This document shows, piece after piece, positions 9,501-60,966 of a stretch of 64,000 bases of DNA. Location of the stretch: positions 4,146,501 through 4,210,500 of the forward strand of contig NZ_CP133480.1 of NCBI RefSeq assembly GCF_031195445.1. Reading direction: 5' to 3'. Made by a program: the position numbers and the translations under genes. This DNA is from Acuticoccus sp. MNP-M23. Lineage in GTDB: Bacteria; Pseudomonadota; Alphaproteobacteria; Rhizobiales; Amorphaceae. Positions within the stretch are counted from its first letter, which is position 1. The number at the start of each line of letters is the position of its first letter. Under the pieces are notes generated by a model that worked only from the letters and a program-made list of their open reading frames with translations, searched no databases and was not told where the DNA came from.

Positions 9501-10081
9501 GCGAAGAACAGTCCGGCCACATCAAGGAGGTGGGGTTCGAGCTTTACCAGTCGATGCTGGAGGAGGCGGTTGCGAGCCTCAAGTCCGGCTCGGACGAGGA
9601 GGCGGCGGATTCGTGGTCGCCGCAGATTTCGGTCGGCATTCCGGTGCTGATCCCGGAGGACTACATCCCCGACCTGCAGCTTCGCATGTCGCTCTACCGC
9701 CGCCTTGCGGACCTCGCCGACGCGCGCGAGATCGACGCCTTCGGCGCCGAGATGGTCGACCGCTTCGGCCCGATCCCCGAGGAGGTCGAGTGGCTGCTCA
9801 AGATCGTCTACATCAAGTCCCTCTGCCGCCGCGCCAACGTGGAGAAGATCGACGCCGGCCCCAAGGGCTGCGTCGTCACCCTGCGCGGCAACGAGTTCGC
9901 CAACGCGGCCGGCCTGGTGCAGCTGATCGCGTCCGAGGGCTCGTCGGCCAAGGTTAGGCCGGACCACAAGCTGGTCTTCATCCGCGACTGGCCGGATGCG
10001 ACGGAGCGGACGAAGGGGGTCGCGGTGTTGCTGGCGAAGCTTGCGAAGCTGGCGGAGGTGGAGACGCGGGCTGCGGCGTGA
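6533..10081 (+). CDS. mfd: Transcription-repair coupling factor Mfd
   Basis: Mfd (1182 residues, full length) removes RNA polymerase stalled at DNA lesions and recruits the UvrABC excision system. Domains in order: a UvrB-homology N-terminal region (to about 350), a CarD-like RNA-polymerase-interaction domain around 500-570 (LVVHADHGIGRF), an SF2 translocase with Walker A GDVGFGKTE near 657 and DEEQ box near 759, a helicase-C domain with RGRVGRA, and the TRCF C-terminal domain (about 1010-1110). It starts inside the sdhE stop. The end of the gene marks a sharp drop in GC into the next region. Confidence 0.97.
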   Translation: MSSKTKGKALSLAEIRDAAKPSLKPLTSEDLPPAVTVDNVPDGMEGDVLATLAHSRTMPVVFVARDGNRQKEAEQALAFYAPDVRVIRLPAWDCMPYDRASPSAVVQARRTAAFATLATGVSGPAVVMTTANAIIQRAPPPETVRDGVRIHAAGADVPMDDVVAWLERNAFVRTPTVREAGEFAVRGGIVDLYAPGTTEPVRLDFFGDTLETIRPFDPESQRTTGQWKEIALIPMSEVVLTDDSISLFREGYLRHFGAATKDDVLYHSVSEGVRAAGIEHWLPLFHEKLASVFDYVPGAPVVLDHLAEDAIAKRIGEIEDHFAARGTALDAVSMGAPYHPLPTNELYLTGQTPAQIFEAHTLIRLSPFATPDGNVLPIPAGGKVGRSFAAERAAENVNIFGALIDHVKNLQKDGLRAIIAAWSEGSRDRLSQVLVDQGLTRVERIASFDAAMALDKGVTALAVMELEEGFQTPDYAIIAEQDVLGDRLVSGARRRKKDANVLTEASSLAEGDLVVHADHGIGRFIGLKTLEAAGAPHDCVEIAYQKDDKLYLPVENIDLLSRYGSDSGDVTLDRLGGAGWQARKAKMKARVREIADELIKTAAARMMKTAPVIEPPTGVYDEFVAKFPYDETEDQLAAIDSVAEDLAKGMPMDRLVCGDVGFGKTEVAIRAAFLTVMTGRQVALIVPTTLLARQHYKTFVERFKGLPVRVAQASRLVGTKEMKNVREGLKTGDVDLIIGTHALLSKSIEFRDLALLIVDEEQKFGVKHKEALKALKSDVHVLTLSATPIPRTMQLALTGVRELSMIATAPMDRLAVRTFIAPFDPLTIREALLREKYRGGQTYYVCPRVSDLASQKEFLEKHVPEVKVAVANGQMSPTALDDVMNAFYDGQYDVLLATTIVEAGLDIPTANTLIVHRADMFGLSQLYQIRGRVGRAKTRAYALLTTPVDKTLTATAQRRLKVLQSLDNLGAGFQLASHDLDIRGAGNLLGEEQSGHIKEVGFELYQSMLEEAVASLKSGSDEEAADSWSPQISVGIPVLIPEDYIPDLQLRMSLYRRLADLADAREIDAFGAEMVDRFGPIPEEVEWLLKIVYIKSLCRRANVEKIDAGPKGCVVTLRGNEFANAAGLVQLIASEGSSAKVRPDHKLVFIRDWPDATERTKGVAVLLAKLAKLAEVETRAAA

Positions 10082-10181
10082 TCGTCACCTTGTTGAAGCG
10101 ATCATCATCTTATTGAGTAGAAAATTAGGTTTCCCCTACCTCATGGTGTCATATATTTCTCCAAATCATTGAGGGGTTTGC

Positions 10182-11003
10182 GTGAGCGAAAATCTATATT
10201 TACGCCTCAAATACACGGGCGATGATGCCCGCAGGCATGTCCTGCCCGCATATTACGCCGGCGAGTCATTGGCGGGTTTCTCACGTATTGCGGAAATCGC
10301 GTTATATTATGCGGCGCACGGTGTCGTTCGGTATAGGCGTCCTAGAAGTGAATTTTTCTCAATCTATGTACACCCGCCAAGAGCAGGGTCATTCGAGAGT
10401 TTTCTAGAAATAGCTGGCAATTTAGGGGGCTTTACGCTCCTATCTGGTGTTCCAGCATCGCTTGTGGCAGCCGCTACCTACGATGTTTTAAAATACACAC
10501 TGCTTCGCGTTACTGGGCGAGATGCCAAACCGCCCTTGGACGTACTTGCACAACCTCTTTCTCCACATAGCGCCAATATTGAAGCGGTTATCGATGCTGT
10601 CGAACCGTCAGCTCGGCGCTTTCAAAATGTGATTGGGGATGGTGCAAATAAAATTTATGTAATAAATGCGCACGGCAGTACAATAAACTTTAACGATGAG
10701 ACTAAATCATATGTCAATCATTCGCAGAATAACAGAGAAGTTCGCGGTAAGGTATTTAGCGTTCACAGCTTCAATGTAAACTCTGGATATGGACGGGTTT
10801 ATGACCAAGAATTGCGACGAAGTATTCCATTTCAGATTCAGGAAACTGCGAACCCTAAAACGAAATCGATTATCGCAAGAAGCCTTAATCAGTATGCAAA
10901 CGAGCAGGAATCATGGATAAACCTCACCTTTACAAGTATCGATGGCCCTAGAGGGCGACCCAAAAAAATACTCATTAGTAATGCAAATATCGATAGTATC
11001 TAA
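10182..11003 (+). CDS. Uncharacterised AT-rich islet protein, possibly DUF7946/DUF7947-like
   Basis: This 273-residue protein of unknown function starts at GTG 10182 with GAGGGG about 5 bases upstream. The N-terminal part (about 1-75) has LRLKYTGDDARRH, a GESLAGFSRIAE helix and a IYVHPPRAGSFE turn. This layout resembles a family I recall as DUF7946, which is often followed by a small beta-barrel (DUF7947). Here the last ~85 residues (VHSFNVNSGYGRVYDQEL...) would be that barrel. This is recall, not a search. No membrane span or catalytic motif is evident, apart from a hydrophobic stretch near 88-108. Codons are rich in A/T third positions, unlike all neighbours, suggesting recent transfer between mfd and the DsbA-like gene. 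Confidence 0.75.
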   Translation: MSENLYLRLKYTGDDARRHVLPAYYAGESLAGFSRIAEIALYYAAHGVVRYRRPRSEFFSIYVHPPRAGSFESFLEIAGNLGGFTLLSGVPASLVAAATYDVLKYTLLRVTGRDAKPPLDVLAQPLSPHSANIEAVIDAVEPSARRFQNVIGDGANKIYVINAHGSTINFNDETKSYVNHSQNNREVRGKVFSVHSFNVNSGYGRVYDQELRRSIPFQIQETANPKTKSIIARSLNQYANEQESWINLTFTSIDGPRGRPKKILISNANIDSI

Positions 11004-11035
11004 ATGTGGTGAGGAGGCCGCAACAGCATTTAGAT
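10998..11035. repeat. Inverted repeat at the 3' end of the AT-rich gene
   Basis: ATCTAAATG at 10998-11006 is matched perfectly by CATTTAGAT at 11027-11035, with a 20-base loop. The left arm contains the TAA stop of the islet gene. No T-run follows, so this is not a standard intrinsic terminator. It could be a weak transcription end or part of an insertion junction. Confidence 0.5.
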
Positions 11036-11050
11036 CTACCGCAGTTCGAC

Positions 11051-11719
11051 TTAAAGTGGGTTTCGCTCCTGCGCCACCTGCCGAATAGCCCCCTCCAGCA
11101 CATCCGCTGGCTGCGCGCCCGATACCGCATACTTCCCGTCCAGAATGAAGCACGGCACGCCCTGTACGCCGATCGCCTGGGCGTGGACGATTTCCGCTTC
11201 CGTCTCCGCCAGATCGGCGTCGGTGGCCAGCAGGCGGGCGACCACCTCGCCGTCCATGCCGGCGGCCTTGGCCGCGTCCACCAGCACCGCGTAGTCGGTC
11301 AGGTTCGCCCCCTCAACAAAGTAAAGCGCGAACAGGCGCTCCACCACGGCGTCCTGAAGGCCCTCAATGCCGGCCCAGCGGATCAGGCGGTGGGCGTCCA
11401 GCGTGTTGGGGGAGACCTCGATCCTGTCGAACGCGAAGGGGATGGCTTCGTCTGCCCCCGCGGCGCTGATGCGGCCGTAGATCTCGGCGATCCGCTCCGC
11501 GCTGCCGAACTTGTCTTCCAGGTACTGGCGGCGGTCCTTGCCGCCGGGCGGGATGGTCGGGTCGAGCTGGTAGGGGTGCCACTCCACCTTCACCGGCACG
11601 TCGTGGGCGGCCTCAAGGGCCTTTTCCAGGCGGCGCTTGCCGATGAAGCACCACGGGCACATCACGTCGGAGATGACGTCGATCTTCAGCGGCTCGAGGG
11701 CCGAGGCGTCAATATTCAT
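11051..11719 (-). CDS. DsbA-family oxidoreductase, FrnE-like
   Basis: This 222-residue thioredoxin-fold protein has active site C21-P-W-C24 (DVMCPWCFIGKR), an inserted helical domain and a VPCFIL cis-proline region near the C terminus. It matches cytoplasmic FrnE-like thiol oxidoreductases (2-hydroxychromene-2-carboxylate isomerase/DsbA superfamily). No signal peptide is seen, so it probably acts in the cytoplasm on disulfides or glutathione conjugates. The frame is open further upstream, but ATG 11719 (MNIDASALEPLK) fits the family and overlaps the upstream gene stop (ATGA), indicating translational coupling to the peptide-binding protein. Confidence 0.88.
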   Translation of the reverse strand: MNIDASALEPLKIDVISDVMCPWCFIGKRRLEKALEAAHDVPVKVEWHPYQLDPTIPPGGKDRRQYLEDKFGSAERIAEIYGRISAAGADEAIPFAFDRIEVSPNTLDAHRLIRWAGIEGLQDAVVERLFALYFVEGANLTDYAVLVDAAKAAGMDGEVVARLLATDADLAETEAEIVHAQAIGVQGVPCFILDGKYAVSGAQPADVLEGAIRQVAQERNPL

Positions 11720-14378: not shown

Positions 14379-14404
14379 GTCGATTGCCCGTCGATCGCGC
14401 TGGT

Positions 14405-14734
14405 TTAGTGGAAATTCTCCGCGCGCGGAGCGTACGATCCGTCCCGAAGCTCGAACATGTCGCTCACCTGCGGGTGACGCACCGGCTCTCCCGTATCGTC
14501 AGGCAGCAGATTCTGTTCGGAGACGTAGGCGATATACTCGGTTTCGTCATTTTCAGCGAAGAGATGATAGAAGGGCTGATCGCGACGCGGGCGGATGTCT
14601 TCCGGAATTGCCTCCCACCACTCCTCGGTATTGGAGAACGTGGGATCAACATCGAAGATGACCCCGCGAAAGCTGAAGACGCGGTGACGGACAACCTGTC
14701 CGAGTTGAAATTTTGCAGTTTTGATTCTACGCAT
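14405..14734 (-). CDS. hspQ: Heat shock protein HspQ (YccV family)
   Basis: HspQ (109 residues) binds hemimethylated DNA and in E. coli acts as an adaptor that enhances Lon proteolysis. The sequence runs KFQLGQVVRHRVFSFRGVIFDVDP, then the YHLFAENDE and YVSEQNLLPDD segments characteristic of the family. ATG 14734 (MRRIKTAKF) is the expected family start. Its own Shine-Dalgarno is weak, and a 49-codon ORF with a much better one ends 8 bases upstream, so coupling is possible. A strong intrinsic terminator lies 26 bases beyond the stop. Confidence 0.93.
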   Translation of the reverse strand: MRRIKTAKFQLGQVVRHRVFSFRGVIFDVDPTFSNTEEWWEAIPEDIRPRRDQPFYHLFAENDETEYIAYVSEQNLLPDDTGEPVRHPQVSDMFELRDGSYAPRAENFH

Positions 14735-14742
14735 CGGACGGC

Positions 14743-14892
14743 CTAACTCATGGTCGACAAACGACCGGGGCGAACGCAAACGCGGTGAGCGCACCGTGCG
14801 CGAACCACAGCTCCCAGCAACAAAGTCTCCAGCGATACAGCGTCTAGCTGTCGCCACCTCGTCCCCGGCTCACACAAACGTCGCGTGATCAT
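14743..14892 (-). CDS. Possible 49-residue leader peptide upstream of hspQ
   Basis: ATG 14892 follows AAGGAGG about 11-12 bases upstream and opens a 49-codon frame beginning MITRRLCEPGTRW. The frame is rich in Arg and Cys and ends TAG only 8 bases before the hspQ ATG. I recognise no protein family, and composition alone does not prove coding. The argument for it is the good ribosome site combined with the poor one at hspQ. It may be a regulatory upstream ORF or an accident. Confidence 0.3.
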   Translation of the reverse strand: MITRRLCEPGTRWRQLDAVSLETLLLGAVVRARCAHRVCVRPGRLSTMS

Positions 14893-15282
14893 GTTCGGTT
14901 CGTCCTCCTTGCAAGCCCCACGCAAGGCAACCCGTGCCAAACAAACGCGTAGCGATCTAGTTGATCAAACGCAACCCCGACAAGACCGAAGATGGCTCAA
15001 TCGTGTTTGAACTTTACACTCCAGACCAACGAAAAACGATAATATGACAAACCTGACCACGAAACTGTAGGTCATGATTTCATCTTCTTCGAAAGCCACG
15101 GAACACACACGGAACTGAAGTCAGATTTAGAATAACAGAAACCTGAACACCAGATCCGGGCAAGCATTGCCCTTGTGGCGCGTTGGTCTGCCATTCCGCA
15201 TCAACCGGATGATACCGTTTGCATACTATCGCAGTCCACCGGATTCAGGAAGCCTTTCGAAACAATTCGTAACAGCAGAGCT
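14893..15282. other. Gene-free region upstream of hspQ, AT-richer than its surroundings
   Basis: About 390 bases lie between the M20-like gene stop and the hspQ leader. No convincing ORF, tRNA or strong hairpin is visible. The stretch is A/T-rich (for example around 15030-15060 and 15120-15150) and should carry the leftward hspQ promoter. CTTGTC...CTAGAT with an 18-base gap occurs on the minus strand near 14955-14985, but I do not consider it proven. Confidence 0.5.
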
Positions 15283-16470
15283 TTATTCCGGCCCGCGCAA
15301 AAGCTCATCTACGGCAGTCGCAAGGGCTAGGGTCGCCCGCTTCATGTCATGAAGAGACACCGATTCGTCGCCCGTGAAATCGACGCCTTCGCCGACGATG
15401 GGCGGGCCGACGCCGTAAAGCGCCAGTGCAATGCCGGCCAGCGCATAGTGCCGTGCGCCCGATACAACCGGCGCCGACACCACCGGGATCTCGTGATCGA
15501 ACGCCGCTTGCGCATGGCGCGACAAGGTCGATGCCAGCCGTTCCGATGGTTCAGATGTGTTGACGGGTTCGGCCAGCAGCAGGCGCCTGCATTCGACCTC
15601 GACGCCGGGGGCGGTGACGGACGCGGTGATCAGCGCGGCAAGATCTGCCTCCACCGTCTCTCCGTCCTCGTCCTGCGCAAGGCGCCGGTCGATGGTGAAG
15701 CTCACCATGTCGGCCACGATGTTGACGCCGCGGCCACCGCCGATGGTGCTCAGCGTGAGGGGTTCGGCCAGCGTGTCGGCATGGGCATGCAGCGCGGCCA
15801 TGAGCGGCACCGCCGCGCGGATGGCATCGCGGCCATCCTGCGGGCGGGAGGCGTGGGCCTGCTGGCCACGCAGCAGCACCTCCAGATGCAGAACGCCCTG
15901 CTGTCCGGTCACCACCTGGTAGGCCGTGCCGGCGGCAATCACCGCATCGGGCTCGGTGAGAGACTGGCCGAGCAGAAACTGCGGGCCCAGGAAGCCGCCG
16001 CCTTCCTCGTCAGACGTGACGTGCAGCTCCAGCGTGCCAGCGGATGCGCCCGCTGCCGCCAGCGCCTCCAGCACGGCAATGTAGGCCGCCACATCGGCCT
16101 TGGAATCGCGCGCGCCGCGGCCGTGCAGATAGCCTTCGCGGATTTCCGCGCCGAACGGCTCGCGGTGCCAGCCTTCGCCGGCGGGCAGCGTGTCCAGCGG
16201 CGCATGGAGCGCAATCGTCGGCCCCGGCCCGAACGTGCGCCGCACGATGAGGTTCGTGACGTCGGTTCGCCGGTAGTGGCGCGCAAACGGCGCGGGCACC
16301 GGGTGCCGCTCCACCATGTGGCCCCGCTCCTCCAGCCACAACGCCAGCCACTCGGTGGCCGCGGCGGTATCTCCGGGCGGGTTTTCAGTCGGCTGGGTGA
16401 CGAGGGCGGACAGGAGCGCAACAGCGTCCTCCTGTCCGGCAAACACCGCGGCCGCGAGCGCATCGCTCAT
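15283..16470 (-). CDS. M20-family peptidase/deacylase homologue with altered metal site
   Basis: This 395-residue cytoplasmic protein has the ArgE/DapE/CPG2 fold: APLDTLPAGEGW, GRGARDSKADVAA, TSDEEGGG, a dimerisation domain with AHASRP, and a C-terminal GDESVS segment. The family hydrolyses N-acyl amino acids or peptides using two metal ions. Here the usual first His of HxD is Pro (in LHAPLDT), the metal Glu of an EPT-like turn is not evident, and the late His before DE is Phe (DFTGDE). The enzyme may be inactive or use a different site. ATG 16470 is 34 bases after the stop of the quinone oxidoreductase gene, so they are probably co-transcribed. Confidence 0.82.
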   Translation of the reverse strand: MSDALAAAVFAGQEDAVALLSALVTQPTENPPGDTAAATEWLALWLEERGHMVERHPVPAPFARHYRRTDVTNLIVRRTFGPGPTIALHAPLDTLPAGEGWHREPFGAEIREGYLHGRGARDSKADVAAYIAVLEALAAAGASAGTLELHVTSDEEGGGFLGPQFLLGQSLTEPDAVIAAGTAYQVVTGQQGVLHLEVLLRGQQAHASRPQDGRDAIRAAVPLMAALHAHADTLAEPLTLSTIGGGRGVNIVADMVSFTIDRRLAQDEDGETVEADLAALITASVTAPGVEVECRRLLLAEPVNTSEPSERLASTLSRHAQAAFDHEIPVVSAPVVSGARHYALAGIALALYGVGPPIVGEGVDFTGDESVSLHDMKRATLALATAVDELLRGPE

Positions 16471-19855: not shown

Positions 19856-20800
19856 GTGGACGCCACCAACCCCGCCAATGCCCCGCGGCCGCCCCGGCGC
19901 AAGACGCGCGCCGGAAAGGCCACGTTCCAGCACCGGCTGGAATATGCAGGCGTGCGCGCTGCCGGGCTGATCCTGCGGATGGCGCCGGTGGGCTGGACAT
20001 CGGCCGTCATGGGCGGGGTACTGGGCGCCATCATGCCGCGCACGTCCAGGCACCAGCGGGCACTGGAGCATCTTGCCCTTGCCCTGCCGGAGCTGCCGGC
20101 CGCCGAACGGGAGGCGATTGCCCGGCGCATGTGGCGCAATCTCGGCCGCGTCTCCGGCGAATCGTTCCAGATCGACCGGCTGGTCAACCAGACCGCGCGG
20201 GTGGAAATGCCCGCCGACATCGACCGCTTCGTGGCGCTCTGGAAGGACGGGGCGGTCAACGCCAGCGCCCACCTTGGCAACTGGGAGATCACCGGCGTCC
20301 TTGCAAAGGCCAATCGGCTGCCCTTTGCCGCCGTCTACCAGAAGCTCCACAACCCTTTTGTGGAAACCTACCTCAAGGCGATGCGGGAACCCGCCTATCC
20401 GGCCGGCCTCTACCCTAAGGGTCCGCAGCTGGCCTACACCATGCTGCGCCTCTTGCGCGACGGCGTGTCGGTGGGGATGGCGGCAGACTTTCGTGAGCTG
20501 CGCGGCATTCCAGTGCGTTTTTTCGGTCAGGAAGCCTATGCCACGCCATTTCCGGCCATTCTGGCGCGGATGACCGGCAAGCCGCTGATTGCAGGCGCCG
20601 TCACACGGACCGAAGGGGTCAATTTCCGCGTCTCGCTGCGCGAGATTCCGGTGCCGCACACGGACGACCGCGATGCTGACATTGCGGCTGCCACGCAGGC
20701 CCTGCACGACGCCTTCGAGGAGTGGATCCGCGCCGCACCCGACCAGTGGATGTGGTCCCACCGCAAATGGGCCAGCCAGAACCGGAGACGGGCGGACTAA
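19856..20800 (+). CDS. Lipid A biosynthesis lauroyl-type acyltransferase (LpxL/HtrB family)
   Basis: This 314-residue membrane-associated acyltransferase would add a secondary acyl chain to lipid A. The catalytic H(X)4E is HLGNWE, with His at residue 139. A YQKLHNP segment, GMAADFRE and the late WMWSHRKW are typical of the family. In this family the usual D..... near the third motif is present as AADF. The start is GTG 19856, with no earlier alternative that keeps spacing to the divergent gene. Its TAA stop overlaps the TAG stop of the convergent MFS gene within the four bases CTAA. Confidence 0.88.
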   Translation: MDATNPANAPRPPRRKTRAGKATFQHRLEYAGVRAAGLILRMAPVGWTSAVMGGVLGAIMPRTSRHQRALEHLALALPELPAAEREAIARRMWRNLGRVSGESFQIDRLVNQTARVEMPADIDRFVALWKDGAVNASAHLGNWEITGVLAKANRLPFAAVYQKLHNPFVETYLKAMREPAYPAGLYPKGPQLAYTMLRLLRDGVSVGMAADFRELRGIPVRFFGQEAYATPFPAILARMTGKPLIAGAVTRTEGVNFRVSLREIPVPHTDDRDADIAAATQALHDAFEEWIRAAPDQWMWSHRKWASQNRRRAD

Positions 20801-22011
20801 TCCACCGCCGGGGGGACGGCCGGGCGCAGGAACAGCGGCAGATAGGACAGGCCCTGCAGGACCAGAAGCACGCAAAGCGCCACCTGGAAGCCGAGGGGGC
20901 TTGCCCCTTCGCCGCCTGCAGCCGGGAAGAACCCGAGAATGACGCCGAAGCCCCACTGCACCAGAAACGCAAAGAAGAAGACCAGGAAGTTCAGCGTGGT
21001 GTTGACCCGGCCCGCGTGTTCCTCGCGGAAATGCTTGGTGGTGATGGCGTAGGCGAGGATGCCGCTGGAGCCGAAGATTGCGAAAGGCACCCACAGCGGC
21101 GTTGCCAGTGACGGCGGCAGAACCACGATCAGCACCGTGACCGCGGCGTAGAACAGCGAGCCGATCACGCACACATGGAGCGATTTGCCCGCCCGTTCGG
21201 CGCGGCTGGCGATGACGCCGAACGCGAAGAAACCGAACATCAGCCCCAACGCGCTCATCGAAAGCCAGAACGCGGCAGCGTCGGCGGAAAGGCCCGCCAC
21301 ATCGCGCAGCCATGGCCCCGTCCACAGCCCCAGAATGCTCAGAAAGCCGGCGTGGACCGTGGCGGCCATGGGTGCAATCCACCACAGCGCGCGCGATTTC
21401 AGAACGGCGCCCAGTTCGCGGGTGAGGGTGGCAAAGCCGGGGCTTTCCTTCGCCTCGCGCTTGCTGGGCACCACAAACAAGATGGATACAGCGCACGCGA
21501 GCGTCAGAACCGCGCCGAGCCCGAACACACCGCGCCAGCCCATGACCCCCAGGAGCGCCTCTGCCGGCCCGCCCCCAAGCACCGACCCTGCGCCGCCGAA
21601 CATCATCAAAAGCCCGATGGCAAGCGGCAGACGCTCCGCGCTGAACCATTTGCGATAGGCCGTGAACGGCGCCATCAGGCAGACGGAGGCGCCAGCCCCC
21701 ATCAACACGCGGCCGATGGTGAGCTCGGCGAATGACGAGGCAAGCGCAAAGCCGCCGCAGCCGATTGCGGCGATCACCAGAAGCGCCGCCTCCACCCGGC
21801 GCGGCCCGTAACGGTCCATCAAGAGGCCGAACGGCAGCTGACAGAGCGCGAAAGCAGCGAGATAGACGCTGGTCAGAAAGCCGAGATCGGCCGCAGACAG
21901 GCCGAGATCGGCGCTGATCGGCTCGCCCGCAACGGCGTTGATGACCCGCAGCGTGTAGGCCAGCAGATAGGTGAGGGCGAAGGGGAGAAAGACGCGCAGC
22001 GCAATGAGCAT
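20797..22011 (-). CDS. MFS transporter
   Basis: This 404-residue inner-membrane transporter has about 12 hydrophobic helices. The loop-2 signature appears as FGLLMDRYGPRRVEAALL, and YRKWFSAERLPLAIGLLMMFGG in the next half-turn resembles the nitrate/oxalate-formate or sugar-phosphate-like MFS groups. The substrate is unknown. ATG 22011 follows AGGGCAGG; the longer frame to 22128 has a basic, non-hydrophobic extension and is unlikely. It lies just downstream of the SelD-type oxidoreductase on the same strand (82 bases). Confidence 0.88.
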   Translation of the reverse strand: MLIALRVFLPFALTYLLAYTLRVINAVAGEPISADLGLSAADLGFLTSVYLAAFALCQLPFGLLMDRYGPRRVEAALLVIAAIGCGGFALASSFAELTIGRVLMGAGASVCLMAPFTAYRKWFSAERLPLAIGLLMMFGGAGSVLGGGPAEALLGVMGWRGVFGLGAVLTLACAVSILFVVPSKREAKESPGFATLTRELGAVLKSRALWWIAPMAATVHAGFLSILGLWTGPWLRDVAGLSADAAAFWLSMSALGLMFGFFAFGVIASRAERAGKSLHVCVIGSLFYAAVTVLIVVLPPSLATPLWVPFAIFGSSGILAYAITTKHFREEHAGRVNTTLNFLVFFFAFLVQWGFGVILGFFPAAGGEGASPLGFQVALCVLLVLQGLSYLPLFLRPAVPPAVD

Positions 22012-22093
22012 CCTGCCCTGATACGCGCCGCGCCTCCTGCCGCATAGGGCGCCCTTCCGGCAAACCGCGCCATGGGTCTGAAAAATGAACGCT

Positions 22094-23167
22094 CTAGCGG
22101 CGGGGCGGCCCCGCGAAGCGGTCGACAAAGCTCCTGTCGAAATGGTCCTTCAGGCGCCAGACCCAGCGCCCCTCCGCCACAAGGCCGTTGCGCACGCCAA
22201 TGGCGCGCCGCCCGCCGGTGGACAGCAAGACGAGGCCGCGCCGCTGAAGGACCAGCGGCGGCGGCGTCCGCCCGTCGGCAAGGGCCGCCACAGCATCCGC
22301 CAGCGGCTTGCCGGACCGCACCGAGAACACGCCAGCCTTCGGCCGGGGATCGGCTTCAGCGGTGGCGACATCGCCCACCGCCAGCACGTTGGGGTGCGAG
22401 AGGCTGCGCATGTGCCCGTCCACAGCCACGAAACCGTCGGCTGCGCGGGCGAACGGCATGGATGCCAGAACCGGCGGCGGCGCGGCGCCGGTGAATGCGA
22501 GGGTGCACCCGCTGAAGATCCGCCGCCCGTCCGCCAGCTCCACAGTTTCAGCGTCCACGCCCGCCACCTCGGCGCCGGTCAGAACGCTGATGTCGGCTGC
22601 GGCAAGCCGGTCTGCGACGCGCTTTGCAAAGCGCCGGGCGAAGGCGGACAGGATCTCGTTGCCGCGCTCGATGACAGTGACGCCAGTCGCCGGGTGCCGG
22701 GCCCGCAAGGCAAACGCCGTTTCCAGCCCGGCCGGCCCTGCGCCCACAATGGCGAAGGCGCTGGCGTTGGCGCGGGTCTGCAACCCCGCAATCAGCGAAT
22801 CGAACGGTTTGGCCGGCACCACGTGGGAATTTGCCAGCGCCGCATCGCGCCAGGCGACCGCACCAAGGTTGAGAACCAGATGATCGAACGGAAGTTTGCC
22901 CGCCGTGGTGGAGAGGCATCCGTCGTCCGCCCCTTCGATCCGGGCATCGACAAGGCGAATGCCCCGGGCATCGCAGAAAGAGGCAAGCGGGATCGACATG
23001 GCGCCGCCAGCGTAGATGCCCTCGATCCAGCCCGGCACCATGCCGCTATAGTGGGTCGACGGACCATCCGAGACGAGGATGATTTTTGCGCCGTGCTTCA
23101 TCCGGGCGAGACGGTCGAGCGCAATGAGGGTCGCATGGCCTGCCCCGGCGAAGATGACACGTTTCAT
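22094..23167 (-). CDS. FAD-dependent pyridine-nucleotide oxidoreductase, SelD N-domain type
   Basis: This 357-residue flavoprotein has an N-terminal GAGHATLIALDRLA FAD motif, then HYSGMVPGWIEGIYAGG, a second Rossmann motif VGAGPAGLETAFALR near residue 140, and the C-terminal FAD motif VLAVGDVA. The GMVPGW...GGA segment is what I recall in NDH-2-like domains fused in front of selenide water dikinase (SelD) and in stand-alone relatives. Here it stands alone, with no kinase domain. The substrate is unknown; electron transfer to quinone or selenium/sulfur chemistry are options. It diverges from ntrY. Confidence 0.85.
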   Translation of the reverse strand: MKRVIFAGAGHATLIALDRLARMKHGAKIILVSDGPSTHYSGMVPGWIEGIYAGGAMSIPLASFCDARGIRLVDARIEGADDGCLSTTAGKLPFDHLVLNLGAVAWRDAALANSHVVPAKPFDSLIAGLQTRANASAFAIVGAGPAGLETAFALRARHPATGVTVIERGNEILSAFARRFAKRVADRLAAADISVLTGAEVAGVDAETVELADGRRIFSGCTLAFTGAAPPPVLASMPFARAADGFVAVDGHMRSLSHPNVLAVGDVATAEADPRPKAGVFSVRSGKPLADAVAALADGRTPPPLVLQRRGLVLLSTGGRRAIGVRNGLVAEGRWVWRLKDHFDRSFVDRFAGPPRR

Positions 23168-42066: not shown

Positions 42067-44226
42067 TCAAAGGGCGCTCGCGGCGTCGGCCGCGCTCCCT
42101 TGCGAACGGGCCGTGTCGTCTTCGAGCATTCGCGCAGCACCCCGTGCTGCCGCCTGCCGCCGGCCGTCGTCGCCCTCCTCACCCGCGACGCGCACGGTCA
42201 CCTCGCGGTGGGCAAAGTGGATGTCGTTGGCGGCAAACGTGTCACGCAGGCCCTGGAACACATGCCGGCGCACCAGAAACTGGTCCCCCGGCTTGGTCTT
42301 GAACTTCACCCGCATGATCATTGCCGAATCCTCCATCTGGACCACACCCTGGCTCTTGGGCGGCTCCATGAACAGCGGCCCCAGCTCGGGATCCGCCGCC
42401 AATTCCTGACCTAGCTTCTTTACAATCTTGCGAACCTTTTCGACATCCGTGTCGTAGGTGAGGCGCACCGGCAGCTTCATGATCACCCAGTCCCGCGAAA
42501 AATTGCTGAGCTGCTTGATTTCGCCGAACGGGATTGTGTGGAGCGGCCCGTTCTGGTGGCGCAGCTGGAAAGAGCGGACGGAGATTTTCTCCACCTGCCC
42601 CGCCACGCTGCCGACTTGCACGTATTCCCCCCTGCGGAACGCATCGTCGAGCAGGAAGAATGCGCCTGAGAACACGTCGCGGATCAGGGATTGCGCGCCA
42701 AAGCCGATGGCAAGGCCGACCACGCCAGCCCCGGCAAAGAGCGGCGCCACGTTAACGCCCAGCGAGGCCAGCACGATCACGGTGACAACCGAGACGATGG
42801 CGAAGAAGAACACGCTGCGCAGGATCGGCAGCAACGTGGAAAGGCGCGAAGCGCCGGGGCCGAAGCCGTCGCCTTCGCTGGCCTCCCCGTCGTCGGTCCC
42901 AGCTTCCGCCTCCAGCCGCAGCGCGACGAAGAGCCGGACTGCCTGCCAGGCCGCCCAGGCCAGCAAAACGAGGAGTGCCAGGCCGAACAGCGTGCGCGCA
43001 CTTTCCGCGTAAACGCCCGAGAACACGCGCCAGATACCGGCCAGTGCCGCGAACCCGGCCAGCGTGCCGACGCCGACGGCGACCCTTTCGTAAAGGACGC
43101 CCCATGCGGGGCTGGACACGCCGTTGGCAAGCCACCTGTCGTGGATGACGATGAGGACGCCGGCCACCGCCATGCCCACCACAAGCGCCAGAAAAGGCGC
43201 AAGCACTGGGCCGATCGCAAGGTGCGTGTCCTCCACCACACCGGCCACCATGATGGCCCAGGCGATGAGAAGATAGCCGACGAAGAGCACCGGCCACGCC
43301 AGCGCCAGAAGCCGCCGGATCGGCCGCGGCCGTGGCGAGTTGCCGGCAAGCGCTGCCGTCAGTTCCGTCCGGTGGATCATCAGAAGCCCGATGAACAGGA
43401 TCACGCTGACCGTGGGCGACAAGATGAGGAGAAGCTGGTGGCTGCGCTGCAGCACCGGAAAGTTGGCGAGCCAGTAGCAAAGGCAGGCAATGGCGTTGGT
43501 GAGAAAGATCGTGACGAGAAACTGGAGATAGAGCATCCGCGCAAGACGGTCACTGAATGGCAAGGCCCGCAGCGCGCCGGCCTGCGGCGCCAGAATCGCA
43601 ATGAGCACCGCCCGCATGAATAAAAATATGGTGAGCATCCCCACCGCCATCATCGCGCTCACCCGTTCGGGCGACAGTGCGGGGCGCAGCGCAATCACCG
43701 TCGCAACGCCTGCGAGGCCGAAGGCCGCGGCACCAGCAGTGTGGGCGGCCAGCATGCCAAGGCCGCGCAGGATCATGCCGGAGCGGGTTTCCTGCGGCGG
43801 CAGCGCCATCGCCCGCCCCATGGGCCGCAGCATCCGCCGCACGAGAAGCAGCGCAACACTCCCGATCGCACAAGCGACCACCGAGATGAAAAGCGCAGGC
43901 CACAGCCACGCCAGCGATCCGCCGCCGGCAGCGCGCAGTGCGCTCAAGGTGTGGGCCGGCAGGCCCGGCGCCTCCGCGAGGATGCCGTCAAGCTTTCCGC
44001 GAATCGAAGCGATCCGCTCCGTGAGCGGTGGCCGCACCGGCAGCATCTGCGCTGCCGGCTCGCTCTCCACCGGCATGACGATGACGGCGTTGCCCCCCGC
44101 CTCCAAGAGCTCGACAGCAGAGGAGACGTCCGCATTGGCGGTGCTCGGCAACCGGGTTTGCGCTTCAGAGGCCGAAATTGCGAGCCCGAGAACTGCCGCA
44201 ATCCATAGGGCACATACCCATCTCAT
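42067..44226 (-). CDS. MscS-family mechanosensitive channel, multi-span form
   Basis: This 719-residue inner-membrane protein has a signal-like start ([18 protein letters not shown]) and a periplasmic segment of about 110 residues. About nine to ten hydrophobic spans follow, then the MscS domain (about 480-690) with [21 protein letters not shown] lining the pore and the cytoplasmic [22 protein letters not shown] beta region. It would open under hypo-osmotic shock. ATG 44226 fits the signal; the frame runs open into purL on the opposite strand. The starts of this gene and purL are only 45 bases apart. Confidence 0.9.
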
Positions 44227-47559: not shown

Positions 47560-49090
47560 CGCTCGCCCTGACGTCATAGTCGGCCGGAAGGTCGATGGTG
47601 ACGGTCATGCCGTTGTCGCGCGTGAACGTCATCTCACCGTCCAGATTCTCCACGAACCCGGTGACGATCTTCATCCCCGAGCCGGCGATGGCGGTGCCGC
47701 CGCCGGGCCGCGCCGCCACGGCGCCATCGTCGGACACCACGATCCTCACGCCGTCGCCAAGGACGCTGTAGCTGATCGTGATCGTGCCCGCCGCGTCGTT
47801 CGGAAACGCGTGCTCGATGGCGTTGATGATCAGCTCGTTGAGGATCAGCCCCACCGAGATCGCGCCCTCCAGCCTGATCTGGTGCGGATCCACCGATGAC
47901 GACAGCTTGATCTTGCGGCGCACGAGGTCGTTGCCGAGGGAAAGGTTGCCCAGGAGTCGCGGCAGGAACTCGTCCATCCGCACCTGCGACAGCTTGTCGG
48001 AGGAGACCAGAAGCTGGTGGACGAGGCCCATCGCGGCCACCCGCTCCTCCACCAGCTTCATGCTACGGGTTAACGCCGGGTCGTTCATCTGCCGGGCTTC
48101 CATCCGCAGGATCGCGTTCACCTGCTGAAGGTTGTTCTTCACCCGGTGGTACACCTCGCGCAGCAAGAGCTCCTTCTCCGCATTGGCGAACTCAAGTTTG
48201 TCCATCGTCTCGTAGAGGTTGTTCATCACGCCGAACAGCTCCTGCTGGGCGCGGTTCTCCCGGGCGGCGTTGCGCAGGACCGTGGCGCCGATGAGCGCAA
48301 TCATGGTGATGGCGATGACGCTGAGGCGGAAGTTGCTGTCGGACACGCCGGTGCGCGTCACCGTCAGGCCGACGAGGCAGATGATCAGCGGGCCGAGGAT
48401 GACGATGGGGAGCACGCGGCGCGCCCCTGCCGACCCAATGCCGCCCTGCAGCAGGACCCTCGCCCAGCTCGCATCGGGCTTCGACAGGAGGATCGCCACG
48501 AACAGCGCCGTGAAGCCGAGCGCGGTGTGCAGCGCCATCGCGGTGAACAGGAACATCGCGTAGAGCGACTGGGTGTTGAACATGTAGCCGACCACCGCGA
48601 CGGCCGCCATCGCAAGCCCGGCGGTGGCCGCCACCTCGAACGCCGTGCGCTTGAACAGCGCCGGCCGCGCCAGCGCTGCGATGCAGTAGGACGCCAGAAC
48701 GAGGCCCACGGTGGTGCCGAATGCCATCTTGTCGCCCGGCGACAGGCCCGGCAGCAGCGCAGCATCCAGCCCCACCTCGAAGCCGGCAAAGTTGTAGAGC
48801 GCCTCCACCACGCCGATCAGCGTTGCCACCGCGGCGGCCACCAGCATCAGCGGCGCACGGCCGGACAGCAGCGCGCCGGCAAGCAGTGCGAGACAGAAGG
48901 CGGTGGACGGCACCATCGCTACATAGCCGGGTGCAATGCGCACCAGAAGGTCCGAGCCCGCCAGCCACCCCAGAAGCGTGAACACCGAGAAGGCCGCAGT
49001 GAAGATGCAGCCTGCTCTCATCAGCCAGACACGGGGAAGATCGAATCTATCGAGGCTCGAAGCCTCGTCGTATGTCACTACATTACGCAC
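47552..49090 (-). CDS. Membrane histidine kinase, HisKA_2 type
   Basis: This 512-residue kinase has about eight hydrophobic spans in its first ~270 residues (from MRAGCIFTAAFSVFTLLGWLAG onward) and no recognised extracytoplasmic sensor. A coiled-coil linker and a HisKA_2 box, YHRVKNNLQQVNAILRMEARQ, with acceptor His near residue 325, come next. The ATPase domain includes the N-box NELIINAIEHAF and GIRIVVSDDG-like G1. The GTG start at 49090 has GAGGGAG 9 bases upstream. Such kinases often signal to general stress or light responses, but no phyR/ecfG is nearby. It is coupled to the receiver gene. Confidence 0.9.
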   Translation of the reverse strand: MRNVVTYDEASSLDRFDLPRVWLMRAGCIFTAAFSVFTLLGWLAGSDLLVRIAPGYVAMVPSTAFCLALLAGALLSGRAPLMLVAAAVATLIGVVEALYNFAGFEVGLDAALLPGLSPGDKMAFGTTVGLVLASYCIAALARPALFKRTAFEVAATAGLAMAAVAVVGYMFNTQSLYAMFLFTAMALHTALGFTALFVAILLSKPDASWARVLLQGGIGSAGARRVLPIVILGPLIICLVGLTVTRTGVSDSNFRLSVIAITMIALIGATVLRNAARENRAQQELFGVMNNLYETMDKLEFANAEKELLLREVYHRVKNNLQQVNAILRMEARQMNDPALTRSMKLVEERVAAMGLVHQLLVSSDKLSQVRMDEFLPRLLGNLSLGNDLVRRKIKLSSSVDPHQIRLEGAISVGLILNELIINAIEHAFPNDAAGTITISYSVLGDGVRIVVSDDGAVAARPGGGTAIAGSGMKIVTGFVENLDGEMTFTRDNGMTVTIDLPADYDVRASDG

Positions 49091-49274
49091 AAAATGGCTC
49101 CCTCAAGTTAAGGAGGTAGCCATCGGTGACAAAAAATTACAAGGTGTAATTGCATTCGCCGGCGACAAATCGTGCGTGATCTAATCGATCAAGCGCTATA
49201 ATTCCGGAAGCGCGACGGCAGGTCGCACCGCCTGCGCGCCGCGGACCGAAAGCGCGGCCCGCGGCGGCTGAAAC
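49091..49274. other. Intergenic spacer between ABC-2 permease end and kinase start
   Basis: This 184-base stretch holds the leftward kinase promoter. On the plus strand AAGGAGGT (49110-49117) is followed 8 bases later by GTG 49126, opening a 7-codon frame (to TAA 49147-49149). This looks like a perfect ribosome site for a tiny peptide but may be chance. No terminator is evident. Confidence 0.35.
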
Positions 49275-50036
49275 CTAGTCGCGCAGCCGGTATCCGGTGC
49301 GGAACATCCACCAGATGATCGACAGGCAGATGGCCGTGAACAGCGCGATCATGGCCGCGGAGAGCGCAAGGTTGACGTCCGCCTCGCCAAAGAAGGACCA
49401 GCGAAACGTTGAGATGAGGTACACCACCGGGTTGAAAAGCGTCACCTTCTGCCAGAGCGGCGGCAGCATCGAAATCGAGTAGAAACTCCCCCCCAGAAAC
49501 ACCAGCGGCGTAATGATCAGGAGCGGCACAAGCTGAAGTTGCTCGAAGTTTTTTGCCCAGATGCCGATGATGAACCCGAACAGCGCAAACACGATGCAGG
49601 TGACCACCAGGATCACGACCATGAGCACCGGATGGGCGATATGAAGGTCGACGAAGAAAGTCGATGTGCCGAGAATGACGAGGCCGATCACGAGTGATTT
49701 GGTCGCCGCCGCGCCGACGAAGCCGATCACGATTTCCAGAAAGGAAACCGGCGCCGAGAGCAGCTCATAGACCGAGCCGACAAATTTCGGGAAAAATATC
49801 CCGAATGCCGCGTTGGTGACGGCCTGCGTCAGGATTGTCAGCATGATGAGACCGGGCACGATGAATGCGGCATAATCGACGCCCTCCACCATCTGGATGC
49901 GCGAGCCGATGGCTGTGCCGAATACGACAAAATAAAGCGAAGTGGTGATCACGGGCGAAATCAGCGACTGGCCGACAGTGCGGATCGCTCGCATCATCTC
50001 GTGCTGGTAGATGGCCCAGACGGCGCGCGCGTTCAT
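49275..50036 (-). CDS. ABC-2 type transporter permease
   Basis: This 253-residue inner-membrane permease of an export ABC system starts [47 protein letters not shown]. Six hydrophobic spans and the conserved LLSAPVSFLEIVIGFVGAA and NPVVYLISTFRW segments are visible. It resembles the Nod-J/drug or polysaccharide-export group. ATG 50036 overlaps the ATPase stop (ATGA). The substrate is unknown. Confidence 0.92.
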   Translation of the reverse strand: MNARAVWAIYQHEMMRAIRTVGQSLISPVITTSLYFVVFGTAIGSRIQMVEGVDYAAFIVPGLIMLTILTQAVTNAAFGIFFPKFVGSVYELLSAPVSFLEIVIGFVGAAATKSLVIGLVILGTSTFFVDLHIAHPVLMVVILVVTCIVFALFGFIIGIWAKNFEQLQLVPLLIITPLVFLGGSFYSISMLPPLWQKVTLFNPVVYLISTFRWSFFGEADVNLALSAAMIALFTAICLSIIWWMFRTGYRLRD

Positions 50037-57972: not shown

Positions 57973-58866
57973 ATGGAGGCACTCTTCATCGGCCACGCCT
58001 ATATCGACATCACCTTCATCGCCGACCAGTTGCCGACGGGAGACGAGAAGACCATCGCGGACGATTACGCCGTCGCCTTTGGCGGCAATGCGACCACGTC
58101 GGCCTTCTGCGCGGCGAAGCTGGGGCTGAAGCCGGACCTTCTGTGCCAGCAGGCCGATGACTGGCTTGCCCGCATGTTTCTCGAAATGGCGTCCCGTGCC
58201 GGCGTTTCGGTGCACGGGCGCAAGGTGAAGCATTCCAGCCTCTCCTTCATCATGCCGAAGGACGGCAAGCGCGCCATCGTGCGCTGCCGGGACGACGAGT
58301 TCATCCACCCTGCCCCCACGCTCAACCTCACCGGCTGCCGCGGCCTGCATGTGGACGGCCACATGGCGGACGCCGCCATTCACTATGCCAAGGCGTGCCG
58401 GGAGATGGGCGTCCTCACCTCGCTCGACGGCGGATCGGCCCGCCCCACCACCGACGCGCTCCTGGAGTTCATCGACGTTGCGGCGGTGTCGGAGCGGATG
58501 TGCGAGCAGATGCAGCTCAATCCGCTGGCCATGCTCGACTATCTGCGCAGCAAGGGCGTGAAGGTGGGGGCCGTGACGCTCGGCGAGCGCGGCCTCGTCT
58601 GGTATGAGGACGGCGGCGAGGCCCACACCATGCCCGCCCTCGCCGTGCCTGCTGGCGACGTGATCGACACCTCGGGCGCCGGCGATGTGTTCCACGGCGC
58701 CTACTTCGCCTCGGCGCTCACCAACCCCGAGCGCTCCTGGGCGGACCATTTCGAGTTCGGCCGCGCGGCGTCCGCCTTTGCGGTGCAACGCCTCGGCAAC
58801 GAAGCATCGCTCCCCTCCATGGACGACATCGCCACCATCCGCTCGGCCCTCAGGGAAGCGGCCTGA
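57973..58866 (+). CDS. PfkB-family carbohydrate/nucleoside kinase
   Basis: This 297-residue ribokinase-fold kinase has a GGNATTSAFCAAKLG substrate region and the catalytic DTSGAGDVFHGAY (Asp of GAGD) near residue 235. It phosphorylates a sugar or nucleoside; the convergent BMP/nucleoside ABC importer on the other strand (14 bases away) suggests a nucleoside or ribose-type substrate, but this is inference. ATG 57973 has AGGAG 8-12 bases upstream; the open frame to 57886 has no support. Confidence 0.9.
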   Translation: MEALFIGHAYIDITFIADQLPTGDEKTIADDYAVAFGGNATTSAFCAAKLGLKPDLLCQQADDWLARMFLEMASRAGVSVHGRKVKHSSLSFIMPKDGKRAIVRCRDDEFIHPAPTLNLTGCRGLHVDGHMADAAIHYAKACREMGVLTSLDGGSARPTTDALLEFIDVAAVSERMCEQMQLNPLAMLDYLRSKGVKVGAVTLGERGLVWYEDGGEAHTMPALAVPAGDVIDTSGAGDVFHGAYFASALTNPERSWADHFEFGRAASAFAVQRLGNEASLPSMDDIATIRSALREAA

Positions 58867-58879
58867 CCGAAAGCGTCGC

Positions 58880-59854
58880 TCAGCGTTCCTTCACGTAGGG
58901 AATGCTGAGCGCACGGGGCGGAATTGCCTTGCCGAAGAAGCCGGCAAGCAGCACCACCGTCAGAACGTACGGCGCAATCAGGATCACATCGACCGGGATT
59001 TCGCCGACCAGCGGCATGTCGACGTTGGACAGGCGCGAGGCCGAGCTTTCGAGCGCGCCGAACAGAAGGCAGGCAAACAGGGTCGGCACCGGCTGCCACT
59101 TGCCGAAGATCAGCGCCGCCAGCGCGATGTACCCCTTGCCGGCGCTCATTTCCCGCACGAAGCCGCCGCCGTGGGCAATGGACAGGTACGCCCCCGCAAT
59201 ACCGCACAGGACGCCGGCAATGATGACCGCGCGGTATCGGAGCCACGCCACCGAGTAGCCGGCGCTGTCCACCGCTTCGGGTGCCTCGCCGGCAGCGCGC
59301 AGGCGCAGGCCGAACGCGGTGGAGAACAAGACGAACCCCGTCAGCGGCACGGCAAGCAGCGCCGCATAGACCAGAATATTATGGCCCGACAGCATGGTGC
59401 CCAGAAAATCACCAAGAAACGGCACGTTCTGGAGTGTCTCGGTGAAGGGCAGGTCCAGCGGCGGGAAGCGTTCGTCGCGCTGCAGGGGGGGCGACTGGCC
59501 CCCTTGCGAGAACAGCGCAATCCCCATCACGATGGTGAGGCCGGACGCCAGAATGTTGATCGCAATGCCCGACACGATCTGGTCGCCGCGGTGGGTGACG
59601 CAGGCAAAGGCATGGATCAGCGAGAGGATCACCCCGGCACCGATTGCCGCCGCAAGCCCGGCCCAGGGCGAGCCGGTGAGTGTGGCTGCCGCGGCTGCGG
59701 CAAACGCCCCCATCAGAAGCTTGCCTTCAAGGCCGATGTCGACCACGCCCGCACGCTCCGAAAACAGCCCCGCCATCGCGCACAGGATCAGCGGCGTGGA
59801 CAGGCGCAGCGTGCTGGCCATGATCTGCATCGCATCGAGCCAGAAATCCGCCAT
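58880..59854 (-). CDS. BMP-type ABC transporter permease 2
   Basis: This 324-residue permease of the BMP (basic membrane protein, nucleoside) ABC family starts MADFWLDAMQIMASTLRLSTPLILCAMAGLF and continues SERAGVVDIGLEGKLLMGAFAA, a signature of the family's second permease. About eight hydrophobic spans are visible. Its start overlaps the stop of permease 1 by one base (TGATG). The gene is the last of the importer operon and converges on the kinase gene. Confidence 0.93.
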   Translation of the reverse strand: MADFWLDAMQIMASTLRLSTPLILCAMAGLFSERAGVVDIGLEGKLLMGAFAAAAAATLTGSPWAGLAAAIGAGVILSLIHAFACVTHRGDQIVSGIAINILASGLTIVMGIALFSQGGQSPPLQRDERFPPLDLPFTETLQNVPFLGDFLGTMLSGHNILVYAALLAVPLTGFVLFSTAFGLRLRAAGEAPEAVDSAGYSVAWLRYRAVIIAGVLCGIAGAYLSIAHGGGFVREMSAGKGYIALAALIFGKWQPVPTLFACLLFGALESSASRLSNVDMPLVGEIPVDVILIAPYVLTVVLLAGFFGKAIPPRALSIPYVKER

Positions 59855-60966
59855 CACGCCGCCTCGCCCTGAAGGCTCGCCCGCCGGCCGAACACGCGCG
59901 ACAGCGGCGCCTCCAGCATGTAGGCGAGCGCGCCGGAGAACAGGATGATCAGCCCCTGAATGACCAGCACCATGTCCCGGTCGATGGAGCGGAATTCGAA
60001 CGACAATTCGGCGCCTCCCTGGTAGAGCGCGCCGAACAGCAGGCTGGCGAGGATGATGCCCACCGGGTGCGAGCGCCCCATCAGAGCCACCGCAATGCCG
60101 GTAAAGCCGAAACCGGACGTGAAGTTGATCTGCAGCTTCTCCTGCGCGCCCAGCACATCGTTGATCGACATCAGCCCCGCCAATGCCCCGGAGATGCACA
60201 TCGTGATGATGATGATCGACGTGACGCCGACGCCTGAATAACGCGCGGCCGGCTCGCTCTCCCCGAAGGTGCGAAGCCGGTAGCCGAACGGCGTGCGCCA
60301 GATGAGGACCCACACCCCGACGCACGCAATCAGCGCAAGAATGATGGAGATGTTGAGGGGCGAGGACGCCATGTCGAAGCCGAGAGCGCGGGCGATCTCG
60401 TGGATCTTCGGCAAGGTCGCGCTGTCGGCGAAGTCGCGCGTCTGCGGTGTCGACTGGCCTTCTCGCAGGAGCGGTCCGGTCAGAAGCGTGACGATGACAC
60501 CGGCCGCAATGAAGTTGAACATGATTGTGGTGATGACAACGTGCGAGCCCCGCGTTGCCTGCAGAAAGCCCGGCAGGAACGCCCACGCCGCGCCGAACGC
60601 CGCGGCTGCCACAATGGCGATGGGGATAATGGCGATGCCCGGCAGGTAGGCGTCGAGGCCGAGGCAGACGAGCGCCGCCCCGAGGCCGCCGATCATCGCC
60701 TGCCCCTCTCCGCCTATGTTGAACAGCTTGGCGTGAAAGGCGACGGCCACCGCAAGCCCGCTGAAGATGAAGTTGGTGGCGTAGTAGAGCGTGTAGCCGA
60801 GGCTTCCCGGATAGACGAAGGCGCCGTCGATCATCACCAGAAGGGCCTTGATCGGGTTTTCGCCAATCAGCATCACCATCAGCCCGGCGACCGCAAACGC
60901 CATCATCAGGTTGAGGACCGGGATGAGGCCGAGATCGACCCAGCGCGGCAGGTTTCCCTTGCTCAC
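59854..60966 (-). CDS. BMP-type ABC transporter permease 1
   Basis: This 370-residue inner-membrane permease has NIGGEGQAMIGGLGAALV and TRGSHVVITTIMFNFIAAGVIV, hallmarks of the first permease of BMP/YufP-type nucleoside importers, with about nine hydrophobic spans. The start ATG 60966 is coupled to the ATPase stop (ATGA overlap). It forms the translocation pore with permease 2. Confidence 0.93.
   Translation of the reverse strand: MSKGNLPRWVDLGLIPVLNLMMAFAVAGLMVMLIGENPIKALLVMIDGAFVYPGSLGYTLYYATNFIFSGLAVAVAFHAKLFNIGGEGQAMIGGLGAALVCLGLDAYLPGIAIIPIAIVAAAAFGAAWAFLPGFLQATRGSHVVITTIMFNFIAAGVIVTLLTGPLLREGQSTPQTRDFADSATLPKIHEIARALGFDMASSPLNISIILALIACVGVWVLIWRTPFGYRLRTFGESEPAARYSGVGVTSIIIITMCISGALAGLMSINDVLGAQEKLQINFTSGFGFTGIAVALMGRSHPVGIILASLLFGALYQGGAELSFEFRSIDRDMVLVIQGLIILFSGALAYMLEAPLSRVFGRRASLQGEAA

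Follow-up and report, generated by a model that had tools for sequence, protein, structure and literature searches.

A rare DUF7946–DUF7947 accessory gene of foreign composition between mfd and a dsbA-like gene in Acuticoccus sp. MNP-M23

The window analysed here, a stretch of 64,000 nucleotides from the genome of Acuticoccus sp. MNP-M23, contains between mfd and a dsbA-like gene a single reading frame that is most safely described as a rare accessory gene that this genome acquired, its family being one that travels on elements of several types. Going beyond that description, we tentatively favour, with rather less than even confidence, the reading that the gene is a horizontally acquired single-gene accessory unit that probably acts in phage or mobile-element conflict. 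The proposed role in conflict is drawn from the company kept by its relatives and from the diversity of their carriers, both taken as raw locus counts.

Results

Composition of the block and its reading frame

A sequence-only reading of this stretch had picked out a compositional outlier of about 0.95 kb between mfd and the dsbA-like gene, and measurement bore this out. The AT-rich, foreign-looking block (10082–11040, no strand assigned) was delimited by sliding G+C; it begins at the stop codon of mfd and ends shortly ahead of the dsbA-like gene, its right edge being approximate. The fall in G+C is sharp, with 60-base values going from 0.65 (10040) to 0.40 (10080) and then to 0.62 (11040). Within the block lies one complete open reading frame on the plus strand (10182–11003; 273 amino acids, GTG start, TAA stop), recognized from the ORF list, Pfam, and codon use, and preceded by a likely ribosome-binding site, GAGGGG, read from the sequence 5 bases upstream of the start (10171–10176, plus strand); the frame, its start codon, and its ribosome site were all as first described. 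The sequence-only reading had also proposed comparing the G+C of 10182–11003 with that of the window. The value for the frame was 0.450 against 0.656 for the whole window, 0.662 for mfd, and 0.663 for the dsbA-like gene (i.e. about 45% versus 66%), and third-position G+C was 0.39 against 0.87 (mfd) and 0.84 (dsbA-like gene). Same-length windows outside the region had a mean G+C of 0.659 (S.D. 0.028, minimum 0.528), and the gene is the site of the lowest-G+C same-length window of all. Codon-use divergence of the gene from a reference of six neighbouring genes was 0.88. Among 25 same-length pieces taken from the same six genes as the reference, the mean was 0.125 and the maximum 0.214, the gene diverging four times as much as the most extreme piece. 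No second copy of the insert was found in the organism's own genome beyond one 20-base match at 95%.

Elsewhere in the window, a second and milder dip in G+C (0.54–0.56) was observed at 14401–15600, and no ORF of at least 80 amino acids is listed at approximately 14860–15280. A strong excess of A over T on the plus strand (AT skew of about 0.25–0.4) was seen at 20800–22400, 42800–44000, 48400–50000, and 58800–60400.

Family membership and distribution

The DUF7946/DUF7947 arrangement that the sequence-only reading had named was confirmed by Pfam. DUF7946 (PF25678; 87.4 bits, E 1.6e-24) covers residues 7–178 (10200–10715, plus strand) and is followed by DUF7947 (PF25679; 39.4 bits, E 6.4e-10) at residues 190–268 (10749–10985, plus strand); both scores are over the curated cut-off of 27 bits and the domains stand in the order of the DUF7946–DUF7947 family, to which the protein belongs. 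In PHROGs, two families without an assigned function matched, phrog_5147 spanning the N-terminal part of the protein and phrog_13337 the whole of it. PF25678, PF25679, and phrog_13337 are descriptive families without a function, and nothing in the window protein contradicts membership. All NCBIfam matches were below their cut-offs, and a sequence search for a solved relative returned nothing credible (best E 0.18). No model of PADLOC (2023 database) matched the window protein up to E 10, and the gene was on that account rejected as a known anti-phage defence gene. No paper containing the word DUF7946 was found in the literature searched.

The family is rare and patchy in its distribution. DUF7946 (PF25678) exceeded its cut-off in 6 of 385 genomes of the class (own genome counted) and in 3 of 369 genomes of the class of G729 (the already-known G729 counted), and DUF7947 did so in 5 of 398 genomes of the phylum (own genome counted). 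Below-cut-off PF25678 matches in G180, G284, G370, and G393 (class) and in G1108 (class of G729) were excluded before counting. Plasmid records matched numbered two with the window protein, three with the Vibrio protein, and two with the G256 protein. A DNA pattern matched 45 viral contigs, five of which hold the family, and the remaining 40 were dropped; single-protein scans gave no close relatives in genome contigs or in viral contigs, and two further alignments searched in viral contigs gave none either.

Altogether, 26 members were collected: the window gene; G021, G401, G146, G354, G256, G701, G777, G729, G710, G906, and G1007; the members of Paracoccus, Vibrio, Escherichia coli, and Pantoea (one of two records); and L057, L058, L059, L049, L050, L051, L082, L087, L098, and L104. 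An apparent near-copy of L082 (L114) was not counted, and two others were excluded: G254, which passes the cut-off but is a fragment close to the end of its contig, and L066, which matches only in part. The E. coli member is below the Pfam cut-offs and was found via the Vibrio protein (E 1e-14). Neighbourhoods were compared for 24 members (all except L051 and L082), those of Paracoccus, Vibrio, and Pantoea as annotation tables only and those of L049 and L050 through family searches with selected neighbours; where no family search is mentioned, genes were named by eye.

Predicted structure

An AlphaFold2 model of the window protein, for which 7 sequences were used, was of low quality overall (pLDDT 48), its C-terminal domain excepted, and a model of the relative L082, built from 11 sequences including that of the window, reached a pLDDT of 81.6 and a pTM of 0.72. 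The L082 model comprises an N-terminal alpha/beta domain (main elements b-a-b-b-a-a-b-b-a), corresponding to DUF7946, and a C-terminal five-stranded barrel (b-b-b-a-b-b), corresponding to DUF7947, and the N-terminal domain and C-terminal small barrel that the sequence-only reading had expected are both seen in it. The order b-b-b-a-b-b fits the strand order of OB folds. When the models were compared with known structures using Foldseek, cold-shock domains ranked first for the window protein, and IF5A, SilF/CusF, and CspA/YB-1 barrels were the best matches for L082. These matches were weak (best E 0.0038, none below 0.001), with probabilities up to 0.96–1.00, and were assigned to the C-terminal barrel from target sizes and topology, not from printed aligned ranges. 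As modelled, DUF7947 would resemble the OB-fold/cold-shock barrels (CspA, YB-1) and the OB domain of IF5A in its strand order of b-b-b-(helix)-b-b. The SilF/CusF barrels match the DUF7947 model about as well as the OB/cold-shock barrels do; because they bind metal, binding of nucleic acid does not follow from an OB-like fold. MoaC and SAM-lyase-type matches were set aside as too weak (E 0.055 and above). We judge the protein to be soluble, since the most hydrophobic stretch appears in the model as an ordinary helix region; an integral membrane protein, which hydropathy still permits for some members, was not adopted.

Mobile carriers of the relatives

The sequence-only reading had suggested that an isolated foreign gene in such a position can be mobile-element cargo, which proved apt for the relatives (on IS1595-type elements, in an integron cassette, in phage gene clusters, and beside a plasmid relaxase gene) but found no mobility signature to go with it at the window copy. 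Two phage contigs carry a DUF7946 gene, between phage head genes and a head–tail adaptor in L049 and between the genes of a tail assembly protein and a tail protein in L050; the two proteins are 79% identical and occupy different slots. Placement in head or tail clusters is consistent with a phage-derived "moron", an accessory gene among phage structural genes that was left behind and would serve superinfection exclusion or lysogen fitness, as are the coverage of the whole window protein by phrog_13337 and a weak NCBIfam match to "putative phage structural protein" (E 0.0028; 17.1 bits against a cut-off of 60). We nonetheless regard this origin as unlikely, given that no phage gene was recognized by eye among the window ORFs around the gene, that three protein queries gave no match in 50,697 GenBank phage records, and that other members are located in transposons, in an integron, or alone.

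At three loci (G146, G354, and G256), the DUF7946 gene is the passenger of an IS1595-type transposon, being convergent to the transposase gene and enclosed with it within one pair of terminal repeats (24–29 nucleotides, 84–88%), in the manner of IS1595-family transposons with passengers. The transposase was assigned from a zinc ribbon and DDE_Tnp_IS1595 (Pfam) at G146 and G256 and by resemblance at G354, and the relation of the three passengers to other members was judged from alignments only. The gene of G146 is shortened to 226 amino acids. Flanking direct repeats were seen by eye, as AAATTTGT at G256, longer at G146, and displaced at G354. On a plasmid of Vibrio sp. HDW18, the gene lies, like an integron cassette, between attC-like repeats in a cassette array, these repeats having been judged against the attC consensus. 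On Paracoccus plasmid p2, it follows the relaxase gene traA by 128 bases. The consistent orientation towards the transposase at three loci and the position behind a relaxase gene would suit a neutral or selfish passenger that helps its mobile element (in regulation, transposition, or maintenance) and does nothing for the host. Such a passenger seems to us improbable, however, since intact copies occur where no element was seen (the window, G021, G401, and G777), and the service of unrelated carriers by one family is better fitted by a portable, self-sufficient function.

Edges of the window block

That no integrase, transposase, or tRNA adjoins the window gene had been stated from the letters alone and was upheld: no integrase or transposase was seen beside it among the window ORFs, and no tRNA occurs in the whole window. 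Terminal inverted repeats were not found at the block edges, nor was a target-site duplication, in that 10020–10182 and 10981–11110 have no shared or complementary word of at least 7 bases. The 9-base inverted repeat that had been pointed out at the 3′ end is present (10998–11035, no strand assigned; arms 10998–11006 and 11027–11035) and overlaps the stop codon, but it is not clearly above chance, at least one equally good repeat having arisen in 12 of the 200 randomised versions obtained by shuffling the bases of the insert; its RNA fold was no better than that of shuffles (44 of 200 as good; z −0.81). Two imperfect 20-base tandem copies are found at the left edge (10080–10119, plus strand), with 14 of 20 positions equal as counted by eye.

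The window copy differs from the IS1595-borne relatives in that no transposase, terminal repeats, or target duplication was found with it, and an IS1595 remnant was rejected for this site on the latter two grounds. It differs from the Vibrio relative in that its 3′ inverted repeat shows by eye no attC core boxes, and an integron cassette was likewise rejected. A single IS1595-type transposase gene was observed elsewhere in the organism's own genome (G000:C1:4579714–4580154; L072), unlinked to the window gene.

Restriction genes and other surroundings

In Paradonghicola, an apparently split gene precedes the DUF7946 gene, which begins 25 bases beyond the second piece. The first piece is a type IIG restriction-methylase (Pfam, PADLOC); the second has no Pfam match and is taken from its position to be the other half. 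In Rhodobacter maris, a protein 93% identical to that of Paradonghicola is encoded after only the last codons of the second piece, and DNA similarity between the two loci stops at the DUF7946 stop codon. In G729, the gene lies beside hsdS, hsdM, and hsdR, of which hsdM alone was checked by family search. Restriction neighbours were counted at two loci, with one remnant (R. maris), among the 24 neighbourhoods, and their presence at two to three loci could be a coincidence in variable regions.

Other copies stand alone between ordinary genes (the window, G021, G401, and G777). A patatin-like gene lies about 58 bases upstream of the DUF7946 gene of G710 on the same strand, and the Pantoea gene has no close neighbour in an annotation table that is incomplete. 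The G906 member was observed by eye within an Rhs/YD-repeat locus, between its pieces (L077:7878–11070). In Prolixibacter, a DUF6414 gene, the DUF7946 gene, and the gene of a protein with a hydrophobic stretch follow one another (L057:8843–11567), and this three-gene run has 32–34% G+C in a stretch of 45% G+C. Upstream of the R. maris member lies a separate run of three genes (L059:2972–7037); its first protein has two histidine-kinase-like ATPase domains, and the first 112 residues of that protein match a PADLOC type II restriction model (E 9.3e-13). The run looks like an uncharacterised defence-type operon. On a viral contig (L104:7874–9820), a gene recognized by eye as encoding an SMC-like ATPase is situated about 215 bases upstream of a pair formed by the DUF7946 gene and a small-protein gene.

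Small proteins encoded beside the DUF7946 gene

A small protein with a hydrophobic stretch adjoins the DUF7946 gene in 8 of the 24 neighbourhoods, namely at L057, L060 (G701), L062 (G729), L078 (G1007, upstream), L079 (E. coli), L087, L098 (divergent), and L104, a count that may be too low because some neighbourhoods were seen as annotations only. The partners at L062, L087, and L104 are homologous (42–49% identity), their genes lying directly downstream of the DUF7946 gene or overlapping it. Reading of the sequences led us to judge these neighbours to be putative membrane proteins. Maxima of hydropathy over 19 residues were 1.62–1.76 for three neighbour proteins and 0.54–1.82 for DUF7946 proteins (1.46 for the window protein), and the neighbour proteins are not set apart by this measure. 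Because hydropathy does not single them out, the probability that we give to our favoured reading, and that given to a reading with small membrane effectors, was slightly lowered. None of five neighbour proteins scored over a Pfam cut-off, and none of four matched in PADLOC. A search of the organism's own genome for a homologue of the L104 partner, run without a positive control, was negative, and the window copy is solo, with no small partner of this type.

The recurrence of such neighbours at eight loci, three of them with homologous and closely adjoining partners, would be explained if the gene were one half of a toxin–antitoxin or two-gene abortive-infection pair that had lost its effector at the window. 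We hold this to be quite doubtful, as no neighbour of this type was seen in the other 16 of 24 neighbourhoods (five of the 16 by annotations or family matches only) and as the neighbour proteins, of which 0 of 5 exceeded a Pfam cut-off, look like several unrelated types.

Relatives and gene order around mfd

Neither the 7 genomes of the same genus, several of which are fragmented drafts, nor 59 of 60 relatives gave a match to the window gene; the sole positive, G021, is from the same order and shows 33% identity. The gene after mfd is different in each of four same-genus genomes read (G006, G002, G003, and G005), and the gene after the dsbA-like gene varies, with what by eye is apparently the same outer-membrane-type gene in 3 of 6. 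About 32 kb of a single contig separates mfd from the best dsbA-like match in G003 and likewise in G005, and in G004 the distance is hundreds of kilobases. The mfd–dsbA adjacency is not shared by the relatives checked, which places the block where gene order has changed and means that an empty site cannot be shown. Composition and the result for the 7 same-genus genomes both support the earlier view of an isolated foreign gene. That it should instead be a native gene of the lineage, with its odd composition due to expression and with no insertion, is very improbable on the same two counts, its codon divergence included, even though the unconserved order of flanking genes leaves the junction not directly comparable.

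Discussion

Under the reading that we favour, of a single-gene accessory unit engaged in conflict, the DUF7947 barrel would bind nucleic acid in single-stranded form, or some other small ligand that an invading phage or mobile DNA provides, and this binding would be turned into a response by the DUF7946 domain at the N-terminus. In about one-third of neighbourhoods, the response might run through the adjoining small protein with a hydrophobic stretch, whereas stand-alone members such as the window copy might act alone or on a host target. The defence role that the sequence-only reading had put forward finds encouragement in the company of the family (restriction genes and small proteins with a hydrophobic stretch), but the PADLOC models did not add to it.

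Cold-shock-like OB folds are described for the CoCoNuT type IV restriction systems, which are predicted to be RNA-directed defence systems (PMC11090510). By comparison with CoCoNuTs, no McrB GTPase, nuclease, or coiled coil was found at the window locus, and the resemblance is that of one small domain; we would regard the cold-shock-like OB folds of CoCoNuTs and DUF7947 as a parallel, not as kinship.

Taken further, the DUF7946–DUF7947 proteins might represent an unrecognised portable conflict family, in which an alpha/beta signalling domain carries a cold-shock-like domain that senses RNA or single-stranded DNA of foreign origin; its members would act alone or together with exchangeable small membrane effectors, travelling as one-gene cargo on transposons, integrons, plasmids, and phages. 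In this full form, the proposal is speculative and somewhat unlikely to hold.

DUF7946 is already named in Pfam, without a function. Carried by mobile DNA of several unrelated types, and accompanied at some loci by restriction genes or genes of small proteins with a hydrophobic stretch, the family is a good candidate for defence or counter-defence, and the modelled fold points to RNA or single-stranded DNA binding as the first assay.
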